Assembly (NCBI RefSeq): GCF_016342785.1
Contig: NZ_JAEINH010000005.1
Coordinates: 62,001-126,000 of the forward strand
From: Sanguibacter suaedae
GTDB lineage: Bacteria; Actinomycetota; Actinomycetes; Actinomycetales; Cellulomonadaceae
DNA length: 64,000 nucleotides
Direction of reading: 5' to 3'
Shown here: in pieces, positions 3,836-17,864 of the stretch
How positions within the stretch are numbered: position 1 is the first letter of the stretch
How the letters are laid out: every line of letters starts with the position of its first letter
Program-made: the position numbers and the translations under genes
Notes under the pieces: generated by a model
Told to the model about the DNA's origin: nothing
Databases searched by the model: none
Seen by the model: only the letters and a program-made list of their open reading frames with translations

Positions 3836-4840
3836 TCAGGACGGCGTCGCGTTACGGGCGAGGTGGAGCGCGTAGTCGGTCCACCACGTGCCCGCCTCCG
3901 GGCCCCCGTTGCACGGGCCGTCGGACCTGCCCGGGTGCTTGATCCACAGGTACCCGTCCACGAGCTCGATCCCGGTGTCCAGGGTCGGTGGCACACCGAG
4001 GCCGCGACCCCAGGGGTTGCACCACTCCCCGCTGTCGGAGGGGATGCCGTTGCGGCTCGTGTCGATCACGAAGTGGGTCGACACGTCGAGCGCCTCGGAG
4101 ATGCGCGTGCCGTACTCCACCTGGTCCTCGGTGCTCCGGAAGTTCGAGACGTTGAGGCTGAAGCCCGCCGCCTCGTCCACGCCTGCCCTCCTCAGCCGGT
4201 CCGCCATCTCCTCCGCGTCGTGCCAGCCGGAGTGCCCCGCGTCGACGTACACGAACGACCCCTGGTCGGAGATCGCGGTCACCGCGTACCGCAGCAGCGA
4301 CAACCTCGTCTGGCGGTCCTCCGGCTCGAGGCAGTCGAGCTGCGCCAGGGCGTCGGGCTCGAGCACGACGATCGCCCGGTGCTCACCGAGCCCGTCGACG
4401 AACTCGCCCACCCAGGCCCGGTAGTCGTCGACCTCGACCGTCTCGTCCGACGCGGAGTGGCTCCCGCAGTCCCTGCCGGGGATGTTGTACGCCACGAGAG
4501 TCGCCATCGCCTCACGGTCGGCCGCCCCCTCCACCGCCCTGTCGACGGCCTCGGCCGCCAGGCGGGTGGGGCCGGGGATCCACACGGCCGTGGGCCGCGT
4601 GCTGATCCTCCGCAGCACGTCACGCTCGGCCTCCGTGAGGGATCGGTCCTCGTCGACCGCCCGCGCCGCGGCCGACGTCGGGCTGACGTCGAGCGGGAGC
4701 TCGACAGCAGCGGGCGACGGCGCCGTCCTGCCGACCATCCACAACGCCACGCACACCAGGACGACAGCGAGCGTCGTCCCCGAGCCGATCCTCCCCCACC
4801 GCACGCGGGACCACTGCCCGCACACGTCGTTCCATGCCAT
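3836..4840 (-). CDS. Membrane-anchored glycoside hydrolase family 6 (endoglucanase type)
   Basis: A 334-residue GH6 beta-1,4-glucanase. After a short basic N-terminus there is one hydrophobic segment (about residues 22-38) that would act as signal or anchor and place the enzyme outside the membrane. Family hallmarks are YNIPGRDCG (118-126), VLEPDAL with Asp163 as likely general acid, YVDAGHSGW (198-206), FSLNVSNF, VIDTSRNG and DGYLWIKHPGRSDG with Asp307. There is no carbohydrate-binding module, so it looks more like a synthesis-associated trimming enzyme than a secreted cellulase. It is divergent from a cellulose-synthase-like transferase, comparable to Streptomyces loci that pair a GH6 protein with CslA. 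Specificity for cellulose is inferred. Confidence 0.9.
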   Translation of the reverse strand: MAWNDVCGQWSRVRWGRIGSGTTLAVVLVCVALWMVGRTAPSPAAVELPLDVSPTSAAARAVDEDRSLTEAERDVLRRISTRPTAVWIPGPTRLAAEAVDRAVEGAADREAMATLVAYNIPGRDCGSHSASDETVEVDDYRAWVGEFVDGLGEHRAIVVLEPDALAQLDCLEPEDRQTRLSLLRYAVTAISDQGSFVYVDAGHSGWHDAEEMADRLRRAGVDEAAGFSLNVSNFRSTEDQVEYGTRISEALDVSTHFVIDTSRNGIPSDSGEWCNPWGRGLGVPPTLDTGIELVDGYLWIKHPGRSDGPCNGGPEAGTWWTDYALHLARNATPS

Positions 4841-4888
4841 CGACCGACCACCCCCTCGACGTGTTCTCCTCGACGCTAACACCCCCAC

Positions 4889-5044
4889 CGCCGGTGAGAC
4901 GCAGGAAACCCTCTGTTTACCGAGAAAATACCTCGGCGAAACGCTTAGTTCGCCGGATCGTGCTTGCCTGGATGGCACCGGAGAAAACGGTGAAGTATGT
5001 TTCCTCGGGGCTCGACGGAGCGTCCCGTCCGCATTTGTGGACGG
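4889..5044 (+). promoter_or_regulatory. Hairpin-rich divergent leader between the GH6 and GT2 genes
   Basis: This less GC-rich divergent region carries a series of inverted repeats: CCGAG/CTCGG (4920-4924 with 4932-4936), CGGCGAA/TTCGCCG (4934-4940 with 4949-4955), CACCG/CGGTG around a GAGAAAA loop (4976-4992), and an eight-pair stem CCGTCCGC/GTGGACGG with an ATTT loop (5025-5044, one G-T pair). The first two share bases 4934-4936 and cannot form together, so the leader could switch between folds. The ribosome site CGGAGGAG at 5069-5076 follows. Neither a known riboswitch class nor a confident -35/-10 pair was recognised. The repeats could equally be protein operators. Confidence 0.4.
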
Positions 5045-5082
5045 CCACCGCGCCGTTCCGCGCCTTTCGGAGGAGAACACGT

Positions 5083-6840
5083 ATGCCCGTACCTCAGCTG
5101 TCGGTCGGGACGCTGTCCAGACCGCACGACGAGGCCCCGACGCCGGGGTCCACCGCACAACTCGAAGCCAACGCGGCGACCGTGCAGACCACCCTCCGCC
5201 CCCCGGCGGACGAGCACCAGCCGGTGGTCGAACCGCCGGACGACGAGGAGCTCTTCTGGTACCTCGGGCCCCAGAGACGGTGGGTCCAGCTGCTCTCCGT
5301 CGTCGCATTCGCGCTCGCCGCAACCAGTCTCACGCGCTTCTCGCTGACCAGCCCGTGGCTCTACCCGCTGCTCGCCCTGCTCGGTGTCAGCGTGTTCGCC
5401 CTCGTGCTGTCCATGATCTCCGGGCTCAACAGGAGGCGGGACAGCAAGGCCTCCCACCTGCACCGGGTGGAGACCTGGCACCGACGGACCCCCGACCACG
5501 ACGTCCCCTCGGTCGACGTCTTCCTCCCCTCCTGCGGTGAGGATCTCGCCGTCCTGAGGAACACCTACACGTTCGTCGATAAAATGCGATGGCGTGGGGA
5601 GCTGAACGTCTGGGTGCTCGACGACGCCGACCTTCCGCAGGTCCGTGAGATGGCACATGAGTTCGGATTCAACTATCGCGTGCGCCCCGACCGTGGCCAC
5701 CTCAAGAAGGCGGGTAACCTCCGGGCCGGATTCCGCGAGTCCGACGGCGACTTCATCGTCATCCTCGATGCCGACTTCTGCCCCCGCGCCGACTTCCTCG
5801 ACCACACGATCCCCTACATGGAGGACGCCGGGGTGGGCATCGTCCAGACCCCCCAGTTCTTCGGGACGTCCATGTCCATGAACTGGCTCGAGCGCACTGC
5901 CGGCGCCACCCAGGAGCTCTTCTACCGCTGGGTGCAACCCTCCCGGGACCGCGGTGGGGCACCCATCTGCGTCGGCACCTGCGCCGTCTACCGGCGCGAG
6001 GCCCTCCGCTCAGTCGGGGGCTTCGCCGAGATCGAGCACAGCGAGGACGTGCACACCGGCATCAAGCTCACCCGCGCCGGGTACAGCGTCCGGTACGTCC
6101 CCGTCCTCGTGTCCCGCGGCCTGTGCCCCGACGACCTCCAGGGATTCCTCAACCAGCAGTACCGCTGGTGCAACGGCTCGATGACCCTCCTTGCCAGCGG
6201 CCAGGCCAACCGCCGTCCCCTGACCCTGCGGCAGCGCATCGCCTTCTGGTCCGGCTTCATGTACTACATCAGCACGGCGATCAACGTGTTCGTGCTCCAC
6301 GTACCCGGGATGCTCATGGCGGTGTTCTTCGCCGACCAGGTCCGAGCCGACCACTACATCCCCTTCCTCGCCGGCGTCTGGGTCTACTTCGTGCTGCTCC
6401 CGGCCGTCATGCGCTCCCACTGGCGGTTCGAGGTGCTCCGCGTACAGATGGCCTACAGCTTCGCCCACGCCCTCGCCATCACGCACAAGCTCACCGGGCG
6501 CACCGCCGGGTGGGTGGCCACCGGAGCGGTCGGCAAGAAGAGCAACCTCGCGTCCACCATCGCCACCGTCGGCATCGTGACCATCAGCCTCACCCTCGCG
6601 ATCTCGTGGGCCGCTCTCGTCTACGACGTCCACGTCTTCGGGTGGGCCGACTTCTGGATGATGGGTCTCTTCCTCCTCGGCTACACCTACCTCGCGGTGC
6701 CGCTGCTCCTGGACTTCGTCAGGGTCGTCGCACCCGCCAGGACCGCCGCACGCCCCACGCCGGCCCCGGCCCTCCGGACCGGCCCGGCCGACGCCGCCCT
6801 CCCCCGCACCTCGACCACGGAAGCCCTGGTGACCCCATGA
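5083..6840 (+). CDS. Processive family-2 glycosyltransferase, cellulose-synthase-like
   Basis: A 585-residue membrane glycosyltransferase. Two N-terminal membrane helices (about 66-88 and 91-113) precede a cytoplasmic GT2 domain with LDDAD (179-183), ILDADF (227-232), SED (320-322) and QQYRW (358-362). This D, DxD, D, QxxRW set marks processive beta-glycan synthases. Several further helices follow (about 388-545). No PilZ domain is seen. The donor is probably UDP-glucose or a related UDP-sugar. The start ATG has a strong ribosome site, CGGAGGAG, about seven bases upstream. The stop overlaps the next small gene (ATGA), and the acyltransferase and ugd genes follow. A polymer such as a beta-glucan is likely; the exact product cannot be read from sequence. 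Confidence 0.9.
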   Translation: MPVPQLSVGTLSRPHDEAPTPGSTAQLEANAATVQTTLRPPADEHQPVVEPPDDEELFWYLGPQRRWVQLLSVVAFALAATSLTRFSLTSPWLYPLLALLGVSVFALVLSMISGLNRRRDSKASHLHRVETWHRRTPDHDVPSVDVFLPSCGEDLAVLRNTYTFVDKMRWRGELNVWVLDDADLPQVREMAHEFGFNYRVRPDRGHLKKAGNLRAGFRESDGDFIVILDADFCPRADFLDHTIPYMEDAGVGIVQTPQFFGTSMSMNWLERTAGATQELFYRWVQPSRDRGGAPICVGTCAVYRREALRSVGGFAEIEHSEDVHTGIKLTRAGYSVRYVPVLVSRGLCPDDLQGFLNQQYRWCNGSMTLLASGQANRRPLTLRQRIAFWSGFMYYISTAINVFVLHVPGMLMAVFFADQVRADHYIPFLAGVWVYFVLLPAVMRSHWRFEVLRVQMAYSFAHALAITHKLTGRTAGWVATGAVGKKSNLASTIATVGIVTISLTLAISWAALVYDVHVFGWADFWMMGLFLLGYTYLAVPLLLDFVRVVAPARTAARPTPAPALRTGPADAALPRTSTTEALVTP

Positions 6841-6971
6841 CGCACCGAGACGACAAGACGCAGGAAGGCGGCCGTGCGACGGCCGTCGAGGTCGTGAGCT
6901 ACACCGCCGTCATCGCGCTCGTGGGCGCCGTGGCCGCCGGATGGTTCGACACGATGGTGCCCTGGCTGTGA
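6837..6971 (+). CDS. 44-residue single-span membrane protein between GT2 and acyltransferase
   Basis: A very short gene whose ATG overlaps the GT2 stop (ATGA), and whose own stop overlaps the GTG of the next gene (GTGA). The product has a charged N-terminus (MTHRDDKTQEGGR) and one hydrophobic span of about 20 residues (VVSYTAVIALVGAVAAGWF) near the C-terminus. Four-base overlaps on both sides are strong evidence of real, coupled translation. A role as an accessory subunit of the glycan synthase or acyltransferase is inferred from position only; no named family was recognised. Confidence 0.75.
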   Translation: MTHRDDKTQEGGRATAVEVVSYTAVIALVGAVAAGWFDTMVPWL

Positions 6972-9055
6972 GCGGGACGACAGCGGCCCCGCCCGGGGGC
7001 ACCGCCCTGGCACAACGCTCCACCTCCGTCCCCCCCGCGGGACGCGAGCACTTCCGGACCGACGTCGAGGGACTGCGAGCGCTGGCCGTCCTTGCGGTCG
7101 TCGCGTTCCACGCGTCCGTCCCGGGCTTCTCGGGCGGGTTCGTGGGCGTCGACGTGTTCTTCGTGATCTCCGGCTTCCTCATCACCGGCCTCCTGCTCCG
7201 CGAGGCCCAGGGCACCGGTCGGATCAACTTCGCGCAGTTCTACGCGCGCCGTGCCCGACGCATCATCCCGCCCGCAGCGCTGGTGCTCGTCGTCGTCGCG
7301 CTGGTGTCCTTCGCGGTCGAGCCCCTGCTCGGGGTCTACAACACGAGCCGGGCGGTGCTCGCCTCCGGGGTCTTCCTCGCGAACTGGCACTTCATCGGCA
7401 TCGGCACCGACTACTTCGGTGCGTCGGTCTCGGAGAGCCCGGTGCTGCACTACTGGTCGCTCGCGGTGGAGGAGCAGTTCTACCTCGTGTGGCCCCTGCT
7501 CGTGCTCGTCCTGTTCAGCGTGGCCCGGCGCGCGCCGCTCATGAGCTCTCGCATCATCCTCCTCGGTGTGGGCCTCACGACCGCGGCGTCGTTCCTGTTC
7601 TCGCTGACCACGACGTCGAGCGACCCCACCCTGGCGTACATGTCCACGCTGACGCGCGCCTGGGAGTTCGGCATCGGTGGCCTCGTGGCGGCCGCAGCCC
7701 ACTGGTTGTCCCGCGAGGCCCGCAGGGACTCCTCGCGGCGCATCGGGTTCCTCCTAGGGTGGGCCGGGGTGGGTGCGGTGGTCGGGTCCGTCGTCGTGCT
7801 CGACGAGTCCGTGCCGTTCCCGGGGACCGCTGCGCTCCTGCCGACCCTCGGGACGGCGGCGATCATCGCCGGCGGCATCCTCGTGGCCAACGCGCGCGGG
7901 TCCGTCGGGGCGGTCCTGTCGGTGCGACCCGTGCGGTACGTCGGGCGCGCGTCGTTCGCGTGGTACCTGTGGCACTGGCCCGTCCTCGTCCTCGTCGAGG
8001 GCCACACGGGCCAGCTCGGTTGGCAGGACCGCAGCGTCCTCATGCTCGCTGCTCTCGTCCTCGCCGTCGCGACGCTCCACCTCCTCGAGATCCCGGTGGG
8101 CCGGTGGAAGCAGCTCGCCCGGCGCGCCGCGCCCGCCACCGCGCTGGGGATGCTCGGCGTGACCGTCACCACCAGCGTGGCGCTGGCGACGGGCTCGTCG
8201 GCCGTGGACCGGCTCTCGTCGACGGAGGCGTCCGCACCGGTCGACGCCTCGAACTTCGAGCAGGTCTTCGGGCCTGACACGAAGGACACGTCGGGCCCCG
8301 TGTCCCCCAACCCGCTCGACGCACCGACGGACGAACCCGAACCGTCCGGGTGCCTCCTCGACAAGGAGGTCGGTCCCGTCCTGTCCTGCACGCTCGGGAC
8401 CGCGGGCGGGACGCCCGTCGTCCTCTTCGGTGACAGCCACGCCCACCAGTGGGTGCCGGCGTTCGACAAGCTCGCCGAGGACAACGGCTGGGAGGTGTTC
8501 GTCTACGCCAAGGCCGGGTGCCCGGTCCACGCCATCGAGCCTCGTGACGACGACTCGCGGTTCTCGAACCCCGAGTGCGTGCGGTGGCGCGCGGCGTCCA
8601 TCGAGTCGATCGTCCGGCTCCGGCCGGAGCTCGTGGTCGTCTCCTCCCTGCACACCTACCTGCCCGACCAGGAGGAGGTGCTCGAGGCGTGGGAGACGTC
8701 GCTCGACCAGCTGCGCGAGGCGGACGCGCCGATCGCGTACCTGCGTGACACGCCGAAGCCCGTCGAGGACATGCCCACGTGCATCTCGGCGGCCTTCGAC
8801 GACTGGACCCGCTGCTCGTTCCCGCACGACGGTGTCCCCGAACCGGTGATCCAGGAGAGCATCACGGGCCGCCAGCCGGGCGTCACCGTCGTGGACCTCC
8901 TGCCGTACTTCTGCGACGGCTCGCAGTGCGTGGCCGTGCGCAACGGCCTGCTGCTGTACCGCGACGACTCGCACCTGACGGCCACCGCGGCACGTTCCCT
9001 CGCCCCGGCCCTCGCGCACGAGCTCGAGGCAGCCTCCCTCGTGCCTGCGTCCTGA
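6968..9055 (+). CDS. Acyltransferase family 3 fused to SGNH domain (OafA-type)
   Basis: A 695-residue protein. The N-terminal half is a multi-span acyltransferase-3 domain starting with FRTDVEGLRALAVLAVVAFH (conserved R and H), with FFVISGFLIT, HYWSLAVEEQFYL and WYLWHWPVLV further on. A linker leads to a C-terminal SGNH domain with GDSH (488-491) and DDSH (666-669) carrying the Asp-His pair. OafA-like proteins move acyl groups, often acetyl, across the membrane onto surface glycans. The GTG at 6968 overlaps the preceding stop (GTGA); an in-frame ATG at 6941 is possible but has no clear ribosome site. Context suggests O-acylation of the polymer made by the adjacent GT2. Confidence 0.9.
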   Translation: MSGTTAAPPGGTALAQRSTSVPPAGREHFRTDVEGLRALAVLAVVAFHASVPGFSGGFVGVDVFFVISGFLITGLLLREAQGTGRINFAQFYARRARRIIPPAALVLVVVALVSFAVEPLLGVYNTSRAVLASGVFLANWHFIGIGTDYFGASVSESPVLHYWSLAVEEQFYLVWPLLVLVLFSVARRAPLMSSRIILLGVGLTTAASFLFSLTTTSSDPTLAYMSTLTRAWEFGIGGLVAAAAHWLSREARRDSSRRIGFLLGWAGVGAVVGSVVVLDESVPFPGTAALLPTLGTAAIIAGGILVANARGSVGAVLSVRPVRYVGRASFAWYLWHWPVLVLVEGHTGQLGWQDRSVLMLAALVLAVATLHLLEIPVGRWKQLARRAAPATALGMLGVTVTTSVALATGSSAVDRLSSTEASAPVDASNFEQVFGPDTKDTSGPVSPNPLDAPTDEPEPSGCLLDKEVGPVLSCTLGTAGGTPVVLFGDSHAHQWVPAFDKLAEDNGWEVFVYAKAGCPVHAIEPRDDDSRFSNPECVRWRAASIESIVRLRPELVVVSSLHTYLPDQEEVLEAWETSLDQLREADAPIAYLRDTPKPVEDMPTCISAAFDDWTRCSFPHDGVPEPVIQESITGRQPGVTVVDLLPYFCDGSQCVAVRNGLLLYRDDSHLTATAARSLAPALAHELEAASLVPAS

Positions 9056-9081
9056 CCCGCACCCCACACACAGGAGTACCC

Positions 9082-10482
9082 ATGAGAATCTCCGTCATCG
9101 GCTGCGGCTACCTCGGAGCCGTCCACGCCGCCTGCATGGCCCACCTGGGCCACGAGGTCGTCGGCATCGACGTCGACCACGACAAGGTCCGTGCGCTCGC
9201 CGCGGGCGTCTCCCCGATCTTCGAACCGAACCTGGACACGATCCTCAGCTCCGCCCGCGAGTCCGGGCGGCTGACGTTCAGCGACGACCCGGCCGCCGCG
9301 GCGGGCGCCCAGGTGCACTTCGTGACCGTCGGCACTCCCCAGCGCAAGGGCGAGAACGCCGCGGACATGACGTACGTCCACGCCGCCGTCGACGCGCTGC
9401 TGCCCCACCTGCGGCCGGGGGACCTCGTCGCCGGGAAGTCGACCGTCCCCGTGGGGACGGCCGCCTTGCTCGCCGAGAAGGTCGCCGCTTCCGGCACGGG
9501 CGCGCTCGTCGCCTGGAACCCCGAGTTCCTCCGCGAAGGCTTCGCGGTGGAGGACACGCTCACCCCGGACCGCATCGTCTACGGTCTCCCGCCGGCGGGC
9601 GCCACGACGGTGGACGGCGTCCCCGCGCAGGACCATGCGCGTCGCCTGCTGGACGAGGTGTACGTGTCCGCGCTCGAGGGCGGCACCCCGCTGGTCGTCA
9701 CCGACTACCCCACCGCCGAGCTCGTCAAGGTCTCGGCGAACGCGTTCCTCGCGACGAAGATCTCCTTCATCAACGCGATGGCGGAGATCGCGGACGCCAC
9801 GGGCGCGGACGTCACCGCCCTGGCGGACGCGATCGGCCACGACACGCGGATCGGGCGCCGGTTCCTCAACGCGGGGATCGGGTTCGGGGGCGGGTGCCTG
9901 CCCAAGGACATCCGGGCGTTCGCTGCGCGCGCGGAGGAGCTCGGCAAGGGTGAGTCGCTCGCGTTCCTGCGCGAGGTCGACGCCATCAACCTCCGCCGCC
10001 GGCAGCACGTGGTGGACATGGTCGTGGACGAGCTCGGCGGTGACGTGGTGGGCAGGAAGGTGGCGATCCTCGGCCTGTCGTTCAAGCCGGAGTCCGACGA
10101 CATCCGCGACTCCCCCGCGCTCGACGTCGCGGTGCGGCTCAAGGGTCTGGGGGCTGACGTGGTGGCGACCGACCCGCACGCCATCCTCAACTCGATCCGC
10201 CAGCACCCTCAGCTGGGCTTCGCGACCAACACGGTGGACGCCCTCTTCGGGGCCGACGCGATCGTGCTCGTCACGGAGTGGGCGGAGTACCGCGACCTCG
10301 ACCCGGAGCGGGTGGGCGAGCTCGTCCGCGCCAAGGTGGTGATCGACGGCCGCAACGCCCTCGACCCGCAGCGGTGGGCCGACGCCGGATGGACCTACCG
10401 GGGAATGGGCCGACCGGGGGTCGCCCCGCGGGCCGCCAGGGACGAGGGCGCGACGACGCAGGAGGCCATGGCGCCGGCCTGA
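9082..10482 (+). CDS. ugd: UDP-glucose 6-dehydrogenase
   Basis: A 466-residue enzyme that oxidises UDP-glucose to UDP-glucuronate with two NAD+. The N-terminus has the dinucleotide motif GCGYLG (7-12), the centre has the catalytic-loop signature FGGGCLPKD with Cys272, and the C-terminal domain contains GLSFKPESDDIRDSPAL. Length is usual for the family. The ATG has AGGAG five bases upstream. It follows the acyltransferase by 26 bases and ends in a strong hairpin, so it is the last gene of the polysaccharide run. UDP-glucuronate could be a second donor for the neighbouring glycosyltransferase; that link is inference. Guanosine- or UDP-mannuronate-type dehydrogenases are less likely alternatives. 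Confidence 0.92.
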   Translation: MRISVIGCGYLGAVHAACMAHLGHEVVGIDVDHDKVRALAAGVSPIFEPNLDTILSSARESGRLTFSDDPAAAAGAQVHFVTVGTPQRKGENAADMTYVHAAVDALLPHLRPGDLVAGKSTVPVGTAALLAEKVAASGTGALVAWNPEFLREGFAVEDTLTPDRIVYGLPPAGATTVDGVPAQDHARRLLDEVYVSALEGGTPLVVTDYPTAELVKVSANAFLATKISFINAMAEIADATGADVTALADAIGHDTRIGRRFLNAGIGFGGGCLPKDIRAFAARAEELGKGESLAFLREVDAINLRRRQHVVDMVVDELGGDVVGRKVAILGLSFKPESDDIRDSPALDVAVRLKGLGADVVATDPHAILNSIRQHPQLGFATNTVDALFGADAIVLVTEWAEYRDLDPERVGELVRAKVVIDGRNALDPQRWADAGWTYRGMGRPGVAPRAARDEGATTQEAMAPA

Positions 10483-16445: not shown

Positions 16446-17864
16446 TCAGGACATCGACGCCGCAGGGTCGGTCGGGGCGATCCCGTCCTCGGCGATGACG
16501 GCCCCGGAGTGGACCACGGCGACGTCACCCGGGTCGGTGAGCCGGGCGTCACCGACAGCCCGGACGTCGGCCTCGAACGTCCAGTCGCCCTCGACCGTCA
16601 GCGACGTCGCGTCGACGAGCGACGGCGGCCCGGCAGCGAAACGCGTGTCGAACGCCTGGATCGTCTTGTAGTGCGCGGGGTCGAGCGTCACGAGCGGCGC
16701 CTCGACGCGCGCCCGCAGGCGGTAGTCGTCCCCGAGCTCGTAGACGTCCGAGCGCAGCACCAGGAGGTCATTCGTGGTCTTCACGGGGAGGAAGCGCTCC
16801 CGGTCCACCTCGAGGACGGCCGCACCGTCGAAGACCTCGATCGCCGCGCCCATCGCGGACTCGATCTGGATGACCGGTGTCGACGACGGGTCCGTCGGGT
16901 CGACGGTCTTCGCGTTGCGGATCACCGGCAGGTGCAGCACTCCCCCGGTCCGCTCGAGCTCGTCCGCGAGCGCCCGCAGGTCGAACCACAGCGAGTTCGT
17001 GTTGAAGTACCGGTGCGTGGTGATGTCACCGGCGGCCTCGGCGTCGGAGTCGAGGACCTGCGCGGTCTCACGCAGCACGATGCGCCCGTCCGAGGACCTC
17101 ACGACGAGGTGGCCGCCCTTGCGGTCGGCGGGCGTGCGGCGGGCAACCTCGGCCGCGAAGGGCGCCCCGGAGGCGGCGAACCAGCCCGCGACGGCGGGGT
17201 CCGGCGAGGCACCGAGGTTGTCGGAGTTCGACACGGACGCGTACCGGAACCCCTGGGCGAGGAGCTCGGTGAGCACACCGGACGTCTGCAGCGCCGTGTA
17301 GAGGTCACCGTGGCCCGGCGGGCACCACTCGAGCGACGGGTCCGCCGGCCACGACACGGGCGTCAGGTCGTCCGCGCGGAGCTTGGGCTCCCGGTTCTGG
17401 AGGAAGTCGAGCGGTAGGCCCTCGACGGGCAGGTCCGGGTACGACGCGAGCGCGGCGAGCGTGTCGTCCTGCGTCCGGAAGCTGTTCATGAAGATCAGCG
17501 GGAGACGCGCCCCGTAGGCCTGACGGGCGTGGCGCACCTGGCCGACGATGACGTCGAGGAACGTCTGCTCCCCGCGCACCCCGAGGAGGGACTTCGCCTT
17601 GTCCATGCCCATCGACGTGCCCAGGCCACCATTGAGCTTGATGACCGCCGTCGCTGCGAGCGCCTCGCGCCCGGCCTCCTCGGAGACCTCGAGGGCGGAC
17701 TGCTGCTGCACGTCGACGAGCGGCTCGACGTCCGCCTCGCTGATGACGCCCGTGTCGCCGGACTCGAGCTGCGCGTAGAAGTGGGAGAAGACGTCGATGG
17801 CGGTCTGGTGCACTCCGCCGGCGGCCATCTTCTGCTGTGCCTGGGTCAGTCCCTGGTCGCTCAT
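16446..17864 (-). CDS. UTP-glucose-1-phosphate uridylyltransferase (UDPGP type)
   Basis: A 472-residue enzyme that makes UDP-glucose from UTP and glucose 1-phosphate. It belongs to the larger UDPGP family found in eukaryotes and some actinobacteria, not the short GalU type: KLNGGLGTSMGMDKAKSL is the nucleotide-binding signature, FMNSFRTQDDT follows, and WCPPGHGDLYTAL is the uridine-binding region. SNSDNLGA and a C-terminal beta-helix-like part complete the pattern. The ATG at 17864 has GGAGG only one base away, so the true ribosome contact may differ slightly. The product feeds Ugd and probably the GT2 synthase at 5-10 kb. It is the last gene of the long minus-strand run. Confidence 0.92.
   Translation of the reverse strand: MSDQGLTQAQQKMAAGGVHQTAIDVFSHFYAQLESGDTGVISEADVEPLVDVQQQSALEVSEEAGREALAATAVIKLNGGLGTSMGMDKAKSLLGVRGEQTFLDVIVGQVRHARQAYGARLPLIFMNSFRTQDDTLAALASYPDLPVEGLPLDFLQNREPKLRADDLTPVSWPADPSLEWCPPGHGDLYTALQTSGVLTELLAQGFRYASVSNSDNLGASPDPAVAGWFAASGAPFAAEVARRTPADRKGGHLVVRSSDGRIVLRETAQVLDSDAEAAGDITTHRYFNTNSLWFDLRALADELERTGGVLHLPVIRNAKTVDPTDPSSTPVIQIESAMGAAIEVFDGAAVLEVDRERFLPVKTTNDLLVLRSDVYELGDDYRLRARVEAPLVTLDPAHYKTIQAFDTRFAAGPPSLVDATSLTVEGDWTFEADVRAVGDARLTDPGDVAVVHSGAVIAEDGIAPTDPAASMS

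Follow-up and report, generated by a model that had tools for sequence, protein, structure and literature searches.

What does a bacterium make with a set of genes in which a processive family 2 glycosyltransferase (GT2), a protein of 44 residues, a membrane acyltransferase and a UDP-glucose 6-dehydrogenase (Ugd) are read in one direction and a membrane-anchored glucanase of glycoside hydrolase family 6 (GH6) in the other? The question is raised by a cassette of Sanguibacter suaedae that lies in the left part of a 64,000-nt stretch (GC 71%; hereafter the window) of a 3.16 Mb genome. An earlier note on this DNA had read the cassette as a system in which the GT2 makes an exported beta-glycan and an AT3-SGNH enzyme of its own acylates it. 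All five genes of that note are confirmed by Pfam and NCBIfam matches, open reading frames (ORFs) and motifs. We propose that they encode an exopolysaccharide machine whose product would be an O-acylated beta-glucan with beta-1,4 bonds, possibly of the (1,3;1,4) mixed-linkage type; we put the rough probability of this reading at 0.58.

The pairing of synthase and acyltransferase extends well beyond Sanguibacter. A scan of GTDB species genomes yielded 80 named loci together with their flanks, and tblastn searches of these with the proteins of the window show that in most of them GT2 is followed by AT3-SGNH; the hosts include Galbitalea, Gordonia, Rhodococcus, Mycobacterium, Streptomyces, Kitasatospora, Nonomuraea and Catenulispora. 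Galbitalea carries all five genes in identical order, with 72% identity. An AT3 gene lies within 4 kb of GT2 in 69 of the 80 loci and only farther away in none. Dozens of genomes share this order, so the arrangement is not due to chance, and conservation of the series GT2, small protein, AT3, which the earlier note had proposed to examine, holds over many actinobacterial genera. In eight loci (five Curtobacterium, Actinotalea solisilvae, Pengzhenrongella frigida and Cellulomonas bogoriensis) the two enzymes are encoded together by a single ORF of about 1210-1350 residues, whose three domains were confirmed by Pfam in both examples tested (L063 and L055). These eight sit in one supported group of 13 tree rows, as two separate fused branches. 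A further GT2, in Rhodococcoides fascians (L089, 9935-13030), is fused to a PMT_2 domain, with a family 26 glycoside hydrolase (GH26) gene divergent from it; a frameshift or an assembly artefact is possible in this case. Fusion of the GT2 with decorating enzymes of two kinds points to a coupling between synthesis and decoration. The conserved order and the eight fusions thus lend support to the proposal of an exported beta-glycan with acylation of its own. No description of the cassette or of the GT2::AT3 fusion was found in the open-access literature, and the family formed by GT2, helix and AT3-SGNH is widespread in actinobacteria and apparently undescribed.

The acyltransferase of the window matches PF01757 and PF19040 at about 114 bits each and belongs to the AT3-SGNH proteins. 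It has R37 and H48 in the AT3 domain and, in the SGNH domain, S490 with GDSH and a DDSH motif (D666-H669). R37 and H48 are spaced like Arg14 and His25 of OafB. His25 of OafB has been described (PMC9833829). The protein falls outside the SucT family (NF058601; 231 bits against a cut-off of 1275), and a phmmer search against the PDB gave no match. Some relatives show local elaborations. Cellulomonas marina (L077) has GT2, then two tandem AT3-SGNH genes, then GH6, and in the Gordonia loci L042, L045 and L048-L050 a LIP-type lipase gene and a GDSL hydrolase gene, which possibly code for deacylases, lie as a divergent pair upstream of GT2. These Gordonia genes, like Oxidored_FMN, GNAT, amidohydrolase and methyltransferase neighbours, were taken as local.

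The synthase itself is a processive GT2 of the BcsA fold. The key residues of its VLDD, DADF, HSED and QQYRW motifs (D, DxD, xED, QxxRW) are invariant in 13 aligned homologues, and fold and membrane helices were modelled on the homologue L051, which is 66% identical to the window GT2 and has the helix module fused (AlphaFold; pLDDT 88.9, pTM 0.88). Among PDB structures this model matches BcsA best (Z 29.4), and CesA and hyaluronan synthase (HAS) come lower; BcsA structures rank at Z 23-29 and HAS at Z 20-21, while absence from such lists carries no weight as negative evidence of membership. Identity over the GT core is 27% to CslA, 29% to BcsA, 26% to NodC, 32% to a Sinorhizobium pSymB protein taken as BgsA from its position and ORF pattern, and 39% to a protein encoded on a Leptolyngbya plasmid. 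The window GT2 scores 184 bits against the cut-off of 699.1 for TIGR03030, the UDP-forming cellulose synthase BcsA; it has no Pfam match to PilZ; the neighbouring genes tested belong to families other than BcsB, and no gene for a GlxA radical copper oxidase is among them. In a tree of 115 GT2s it groups with L038-L040 within a helix-bearing clade of 67 (SH-aLRT 99), on a branch separate from CslA, and none of the known-product synthases compared (CslA, BcsA, NodC, BgsA-like) clusters with it. Of 109 family sequences, 107 have the gating loop W-x-x-T/S-G (WVATG in the window) and none has FxVTxK, this latter form being carried by the BcsA, CslA and BgsA-like proteins compared and likewise by RiGT2 (PMC10374906). 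By the tests made, the window GT2 is a BcsA-fold synthase outside the BcsA and CslA families, and the earlier view that the system differs from known cellulose machines is borne out by the missing PilZ, the missing adjacent BcsB or GlxA and the distinct loop. Despite the lack of PilZ in the GT2, control by cyclic di-GMP (c-di-GMP) could be exerted by another route, since the genome gives seven GGDEF matches. One GGDEF domain lies near the cassette, at contig positions 59203-59655, some 2.3-2.8 kb before the window begins. The Leptolyngbya boryana relative (plasmid pLBA, L119:3980-5672), a cyanobacterial GT2 with 39% identity over the core, has a WVPTG loop and, directly downstream, a 54-residue ORF that is perhaps another detached helix. 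CslA membership was first suspected for L026-L037, and was dropped when these loci proved to carry GH26 and PMT-type genes; loci that do hold CslA were then reached through GH6, and were recognised by an ORF of GlxA size (645-651 aa; L146, L148) with a GH6 nearby.

What, then, is the small protein between synthase and acyltransferase? Pfam holds no family for it or for its L038 counterpart, and NCBIfam none for the window protein. A profile built from 14 separate small ORFs matches 65 loci, as a separate ORF in 21 and as a module at the GT2 C-terminus in 44. The signature of the small ORFs reads, in its fullest form, E-x-(V/A)-x-x-(Y/I)-T, a hydrophobic stretch, and G-x-F-D-x-M-(L/I)-P-W. In the L051 model the module is a high-confidence helix that follows the core membrane helices. 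By this profile match, the 44-residue protein is the split-off C-terminal helix of the synthase; the gene described in the earlier note is real, and its reading as a separate membrane protein needs this correction. At least 9 changes of state are required on the tree, so the module has been split or joined repeatedly. By inference, the GT2 core would end on the cytosolic side, with the extra helix crossing from inside to outside.

On the product, the neighbouring genes are more telling than the sequence of the GT2, which does not decide the matter by itself. The window GH6 (PF01341, 208 bits, cut-off 27) has Mycobacterium Cel6 as its closest solved structure (E=1.7e-66) and, aligned with the Thermobifida and Mycobacterium Cel6 enzymes, retains the aspartates in its GRDCG, EPDA and GRSDG motifs. 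A GH6 divergent from GT2 was found in just two further loci, L038 and L039 (Galbitalea and another Microbacteriaceae genome); these proteins are 56-59% identical to that of the window, which is 40-47% identical to most other GH6 proteins, CslZ types among them. GH26 genes occur within 4 kb of GT2 in 16 of the 80 loci, PMT-type loci included, and farther away in 1 (p=1.7e-5, a descriptive value like the other near/far p-values, since shared ancestry contributes to the counts). The two GH26 proteins tested, of L089 and L051, match Clostridium thermocellum Lic26A (endoglucanase H in the PDB) at E=9e-36 and 1e-26, against E=5e-9 or weaker for beta-mannanases. Lichenases of GH26 branch apart from mannanases (PMC6556568), and the two glutamates of the expected catalytic pair (HEMNG and ETG-type motifs) are invariant in 12 sequences. 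The host genome, searched for GH26, has none. By these comparisons the usual glycosidase of the family is a lichenase-type GH26, replaced by GH6 in the subclade of the window, L038 and L039; the earlier description of GH6 as the system's own glucanase thus stands for these three loci and fails for the family at large. Because GH6 and Lic26A both act on beta-1,4-glucosidic bonds, a beta-glucan would be the simplest common substrate. By analogy, the preference of Lic26A favours a mixed-linkage chain, without proving it. In the Streptomyces-like loci L124 and L125, and similarly in L126-L128, a GT2-GH26-PMT_2 locus lies beside an ORF resembling truA, with Ugd behind it in L124 and L125. Such loci are possibly a glycosylated instead of an acylated version of the system.

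From the gene content, order, fusions, motifs, fold and family limits documented here, we infer the substrate, the linkage, the acyl group, the function of the helix and the timing of events. The catalytic motifs of GT2, GH6, AT3-SGNH and Ugd are intact, so that no enzyme is visibly broken. One could envision the GT2 polymerising sugar from a UDP-sugar, probably UDP-glucose, and passing the growing chain out through a membrane channel of its own. An additional transmembrane helix, docked on the synthase, would come from the 44-residue protein; it is perhaps the counterpart of the BcsB anchor or the GlxA anchor, and may also keep the acyltransferase near the channel. AT3-SGNH would move acyl groups across the membrane onto the emerging chain, which the membrane-anchored GH6 would trim or release; in many relatives this task probably falls to the GH26 lichenase. 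Ugd would make UDP-glucuronate, either for occasional residues of the polymer or for another glycan.

Several observations weigh against this scheme. The gating loop of the family is unlike that of every beta-glucan synthase compared; the lichenase matches, at 97-127 bits, are distant from identity; shared ancestry underlies part of the near/far counts; and for Ugd that count (7 near, 1 far over 80 loci; p=0.015) hints at glucuronate. The link between helix and acyltransferase is essentially that of one clade, with just 2-3 contrasts in an independent-pairs test, and in L041 and L044, where no AT3 is adjacent, a C-terminal helix persists in diverged form. On account of these two loci we gave up the idea of a joint loss of helix and AT3.

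The alternatives concern the role of the helix, the product and the place of GH6. The 44-residue helix might serve mainly to tether AT3-SGNH to the synthase, and would then not be a structural subunit of the synthase. Among loci of determinable state, 64 have both helix and AT3, 17 have neither and 4 have AT3 only, so that no profile-detected helix occurs without AT3; moreover, the linkers of the GT2::AT3 fusions contain no helix, as the topology would require, since AT3 starts in the cytosol. Yet the helix is found fused to GT2 and was not seen fused to AT3, and the single-clade distribution and the helices of L041 and L044 tell against a tether as well. We regard the tether as a real possibility with the odds somewhat against it; in the other role the helix would serve the synthase, as the BcsB and GlxA anchors do (PMC11022532). 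An extended form of our own proposal is put forward more tentatively still: that the family is a distinct class of actinobacterial beta-glucan synthases with a W-x-x-T-G loop, no c-di-GMP domain and the helix, as 44-residue microprotein or synthase C-terminus, for sole partner subunit, forming one unit with AT3-SGNH up to a single chain and producing an O-acylated mixed-linkage beta-glucan.

As to the product, plain O-acylated cellulose would make the cassette an actinobacterial counterpart of Wss or of clostridial Ccs, with AT3-SGNH replacing the MBOAT/SGNH pair. BcsA is the closest solved relative in both fold and sequence, GH6 is a beta-1,4-glucanase family, and Pseudomonas has operons for acetyl-cellulose, while an operon of this kind that includes a glucanase has been proposed for Clostridia (PMC7710045). 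However, the GH26 partners are closer to a mixed-linkage glucanase than to a cellulase, and the gating loop, the low identity to BcsA and the TIGR03030 score all set the synthase apart; we consider this reading unlikely. Rather less probable is a glucuronate-containing beta-glycan, for example one in which glucose and glucuronate alternate as in the pneumococcal type 3 capsule, or a hyaluronan-like chain, for which Ugd would be the supplier, AT3 the acylating enzyme and the glycosidase the trimming one. The window Ugd (TIGR03026, 404 bits, cut-off 190) keeps Cys272 and is a UDP-glucose 6-dehydrogenase by domain and cysteine, although it scores 359 against the TuaD equivalog model, under the cut-off of 700. 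Ugd lies near GT2 on the same strand in 9 of 81 loci, L041, L058 and L063 having it as immediate neighbour, and also follows the GT2-GH26-PMT genes of the two Streptomyces loci; the tryptophan of the gating loop recalls WGTSGR of HAS (PMC11750622). But in most relatives that share the GT2-AT3 core there is no Ugd gene within 8 kb, the hydrolases accompanying the synthase are glucanases, a PDB profile search lists no hyaluronan synthase, and BcsA outranks HAS structurally. Glucuronate, which the earlier note had allowed for, is therefore possible and not general. That GH6 is an ordinary secreted cellulase, a chance neighbour of an unrelated capsule operon, is very improbable even with two other GH6 genes in the genome, most related loci lacking GH6 and its near/far count not significant (p=0.22), since the closest GH6 proteins occupy the identical divergent position in Galbitalea and the other Microbacteriaceae genome, GH26 holds a comparable place elsewhere and CslZ adjoining CslA-GlxA provides a precedent (PMC9040799).

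The O-acylated beta-glucan that we favour would probably draw on UDP-glucose, and the UDP-glucose pyrophosphorylase gene (UGP; 16446-17864, minus strand; PF01704, 396 bits) to which the earlier note pointed is present at 16.4 kb; its supposed link with the cassette does not hold, UGP being a core gene found in 5 of 5 congeners, none of which gave a GT2 match at E 1e-60. Of 395 genomes sampled from the class, 26 have this GT2 type by a protein search at E 1e-70; at E 1e-60 it was found in none of the five congeners and in one other genome of the family sample. Synteny with two congeners (G002, G003) starts at about 16.2 kb and extends rightward, with UGP on the conserved side; the left 16 kb, cassette included, has no counterpart in the congener stretches compared and resembles a variable region. 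This lack of synteny and the position of the nearest relatives in Microbacteriaceae make it likely that the cassette was acquired by transfer.

Features of the cassette in the window (positions are those of the window)
Feature	Position	Strand	Description
GH6 beta-1,4-glucanase	3836-4840	-	334 aa; PF01341; one N-terminal membrane anchor
Divergent intergenic region	4841-5082		62% GC vs 71% for the window; two stem-loops at ~4934-4992
Processive GT2 synthase	5083-6840	+	585 aa; BcsA-like fold without PilZ; VLDD, DADF, HSED, QQYRW, WVATG
Small single-helix protein	6837-6971	+	44 aa, one hydrophobic segment; by profile match, detached C-terminal helix module of the synthase
AT3-SGNH membrane acyltransferase	6968-9055	+	695 aa; PF01757 and PF19040
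Ugd, UDP-glucose 6-dehydrogenase	9082-10482	+	466 aa; TIGR03026; active-site Cys272

The four-base overlaps noted earlier among the first three co-directional genes are real (ATGA at 6837-6840 between GT2 and the small protein, GTGA at 6968-6971 between the latter and AT3), and 26 bases separate AT3-SGNH from Ugd. The GT2 ORF opens at 4834; its likely start is the ATG at 5083, preceded by GGAGGA. The GH6 ORF reaches TTG 5323 and is too long, the ATG at 4840, ahead of the hydrophobic segment, being the likely start. The stem-loops in the gap between the two genes are terminator-like, and 2 were found against 0.2 expected in shuffles. A sigma-70-like promoter sought in this gap was not found, and a riboswitch was discounted because an Rfam search returned chance matches only, none near threshold.

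Synthase-dependent exopolysaccharides are best known from Gram-negative bacteria. The present family offers a compact model for the coupling of chain synthesis to acylation, with natural single-chain synthase-acyltransferases and a partner helix that lends itself to relocation or deletion; its exchangeable GH6 and GH26 partners amount to a built-in test of the product, and acylated beta-glucans are relevant to materials and biofilms.

Several known systems resemble the cassette or one of its parts. The Streptomyces CslA-GlxA-CslZ system likewise combines an actinobacterial BcsA-fold GT2, a nearby membrane-bound GH6 and a partner with a single transmembrane helix (the GlxA anchor). CslA, however, is distant in sequence and lies outside the window clade, has FxVTPK and a partial PilZ and requires c-di-GMP for full activity, whereas the window GT2 has WVATG, no PilZ and no GlxA beside it; no acyltransferase is described for the Streptomyces system in the literature compared. 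Clostridial CcsZABHI, proposed to make O-acetylated cellulose, is also a Gram-positive operon with a GT2 synthase, its own glucanase and O-acylation proteins. It differs in the PilZ domain of CcsA, the CcsB partner, acylation by MBOAT and a DHHW-type SGNH protein, and a GH5 glucanase; the PilZ, CcsB and MBOAT domains were not found by Pfam in the cassette, which thus stands outside the Ccs group. With BcsA-BcsB the window GT2 shares fold, membrane channel and DxD, TED-like and QxxRW motifs, and it departs from that pair in lacking PilZ and an adjacent BcsB, in its 29% identity and in its gating loop. The mixed-linkage synthases BgsA of Sinorhizobium and RiGT2 of Romboutsia are processive GT2s as well, possibly with the same class of product; both have FxVTxK, RiGT2 has PilZ motifs, and neither AT3-SGNH nor a detached helix is reported for them in the literature compared. 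Finally, OafA/OafB, OatA and SucT have the domains and catalytic motifs of the window AT3-SGNH; unlike them, the window family couples this enzyme to a polysaccharide synthase, by operon or within a single chain.

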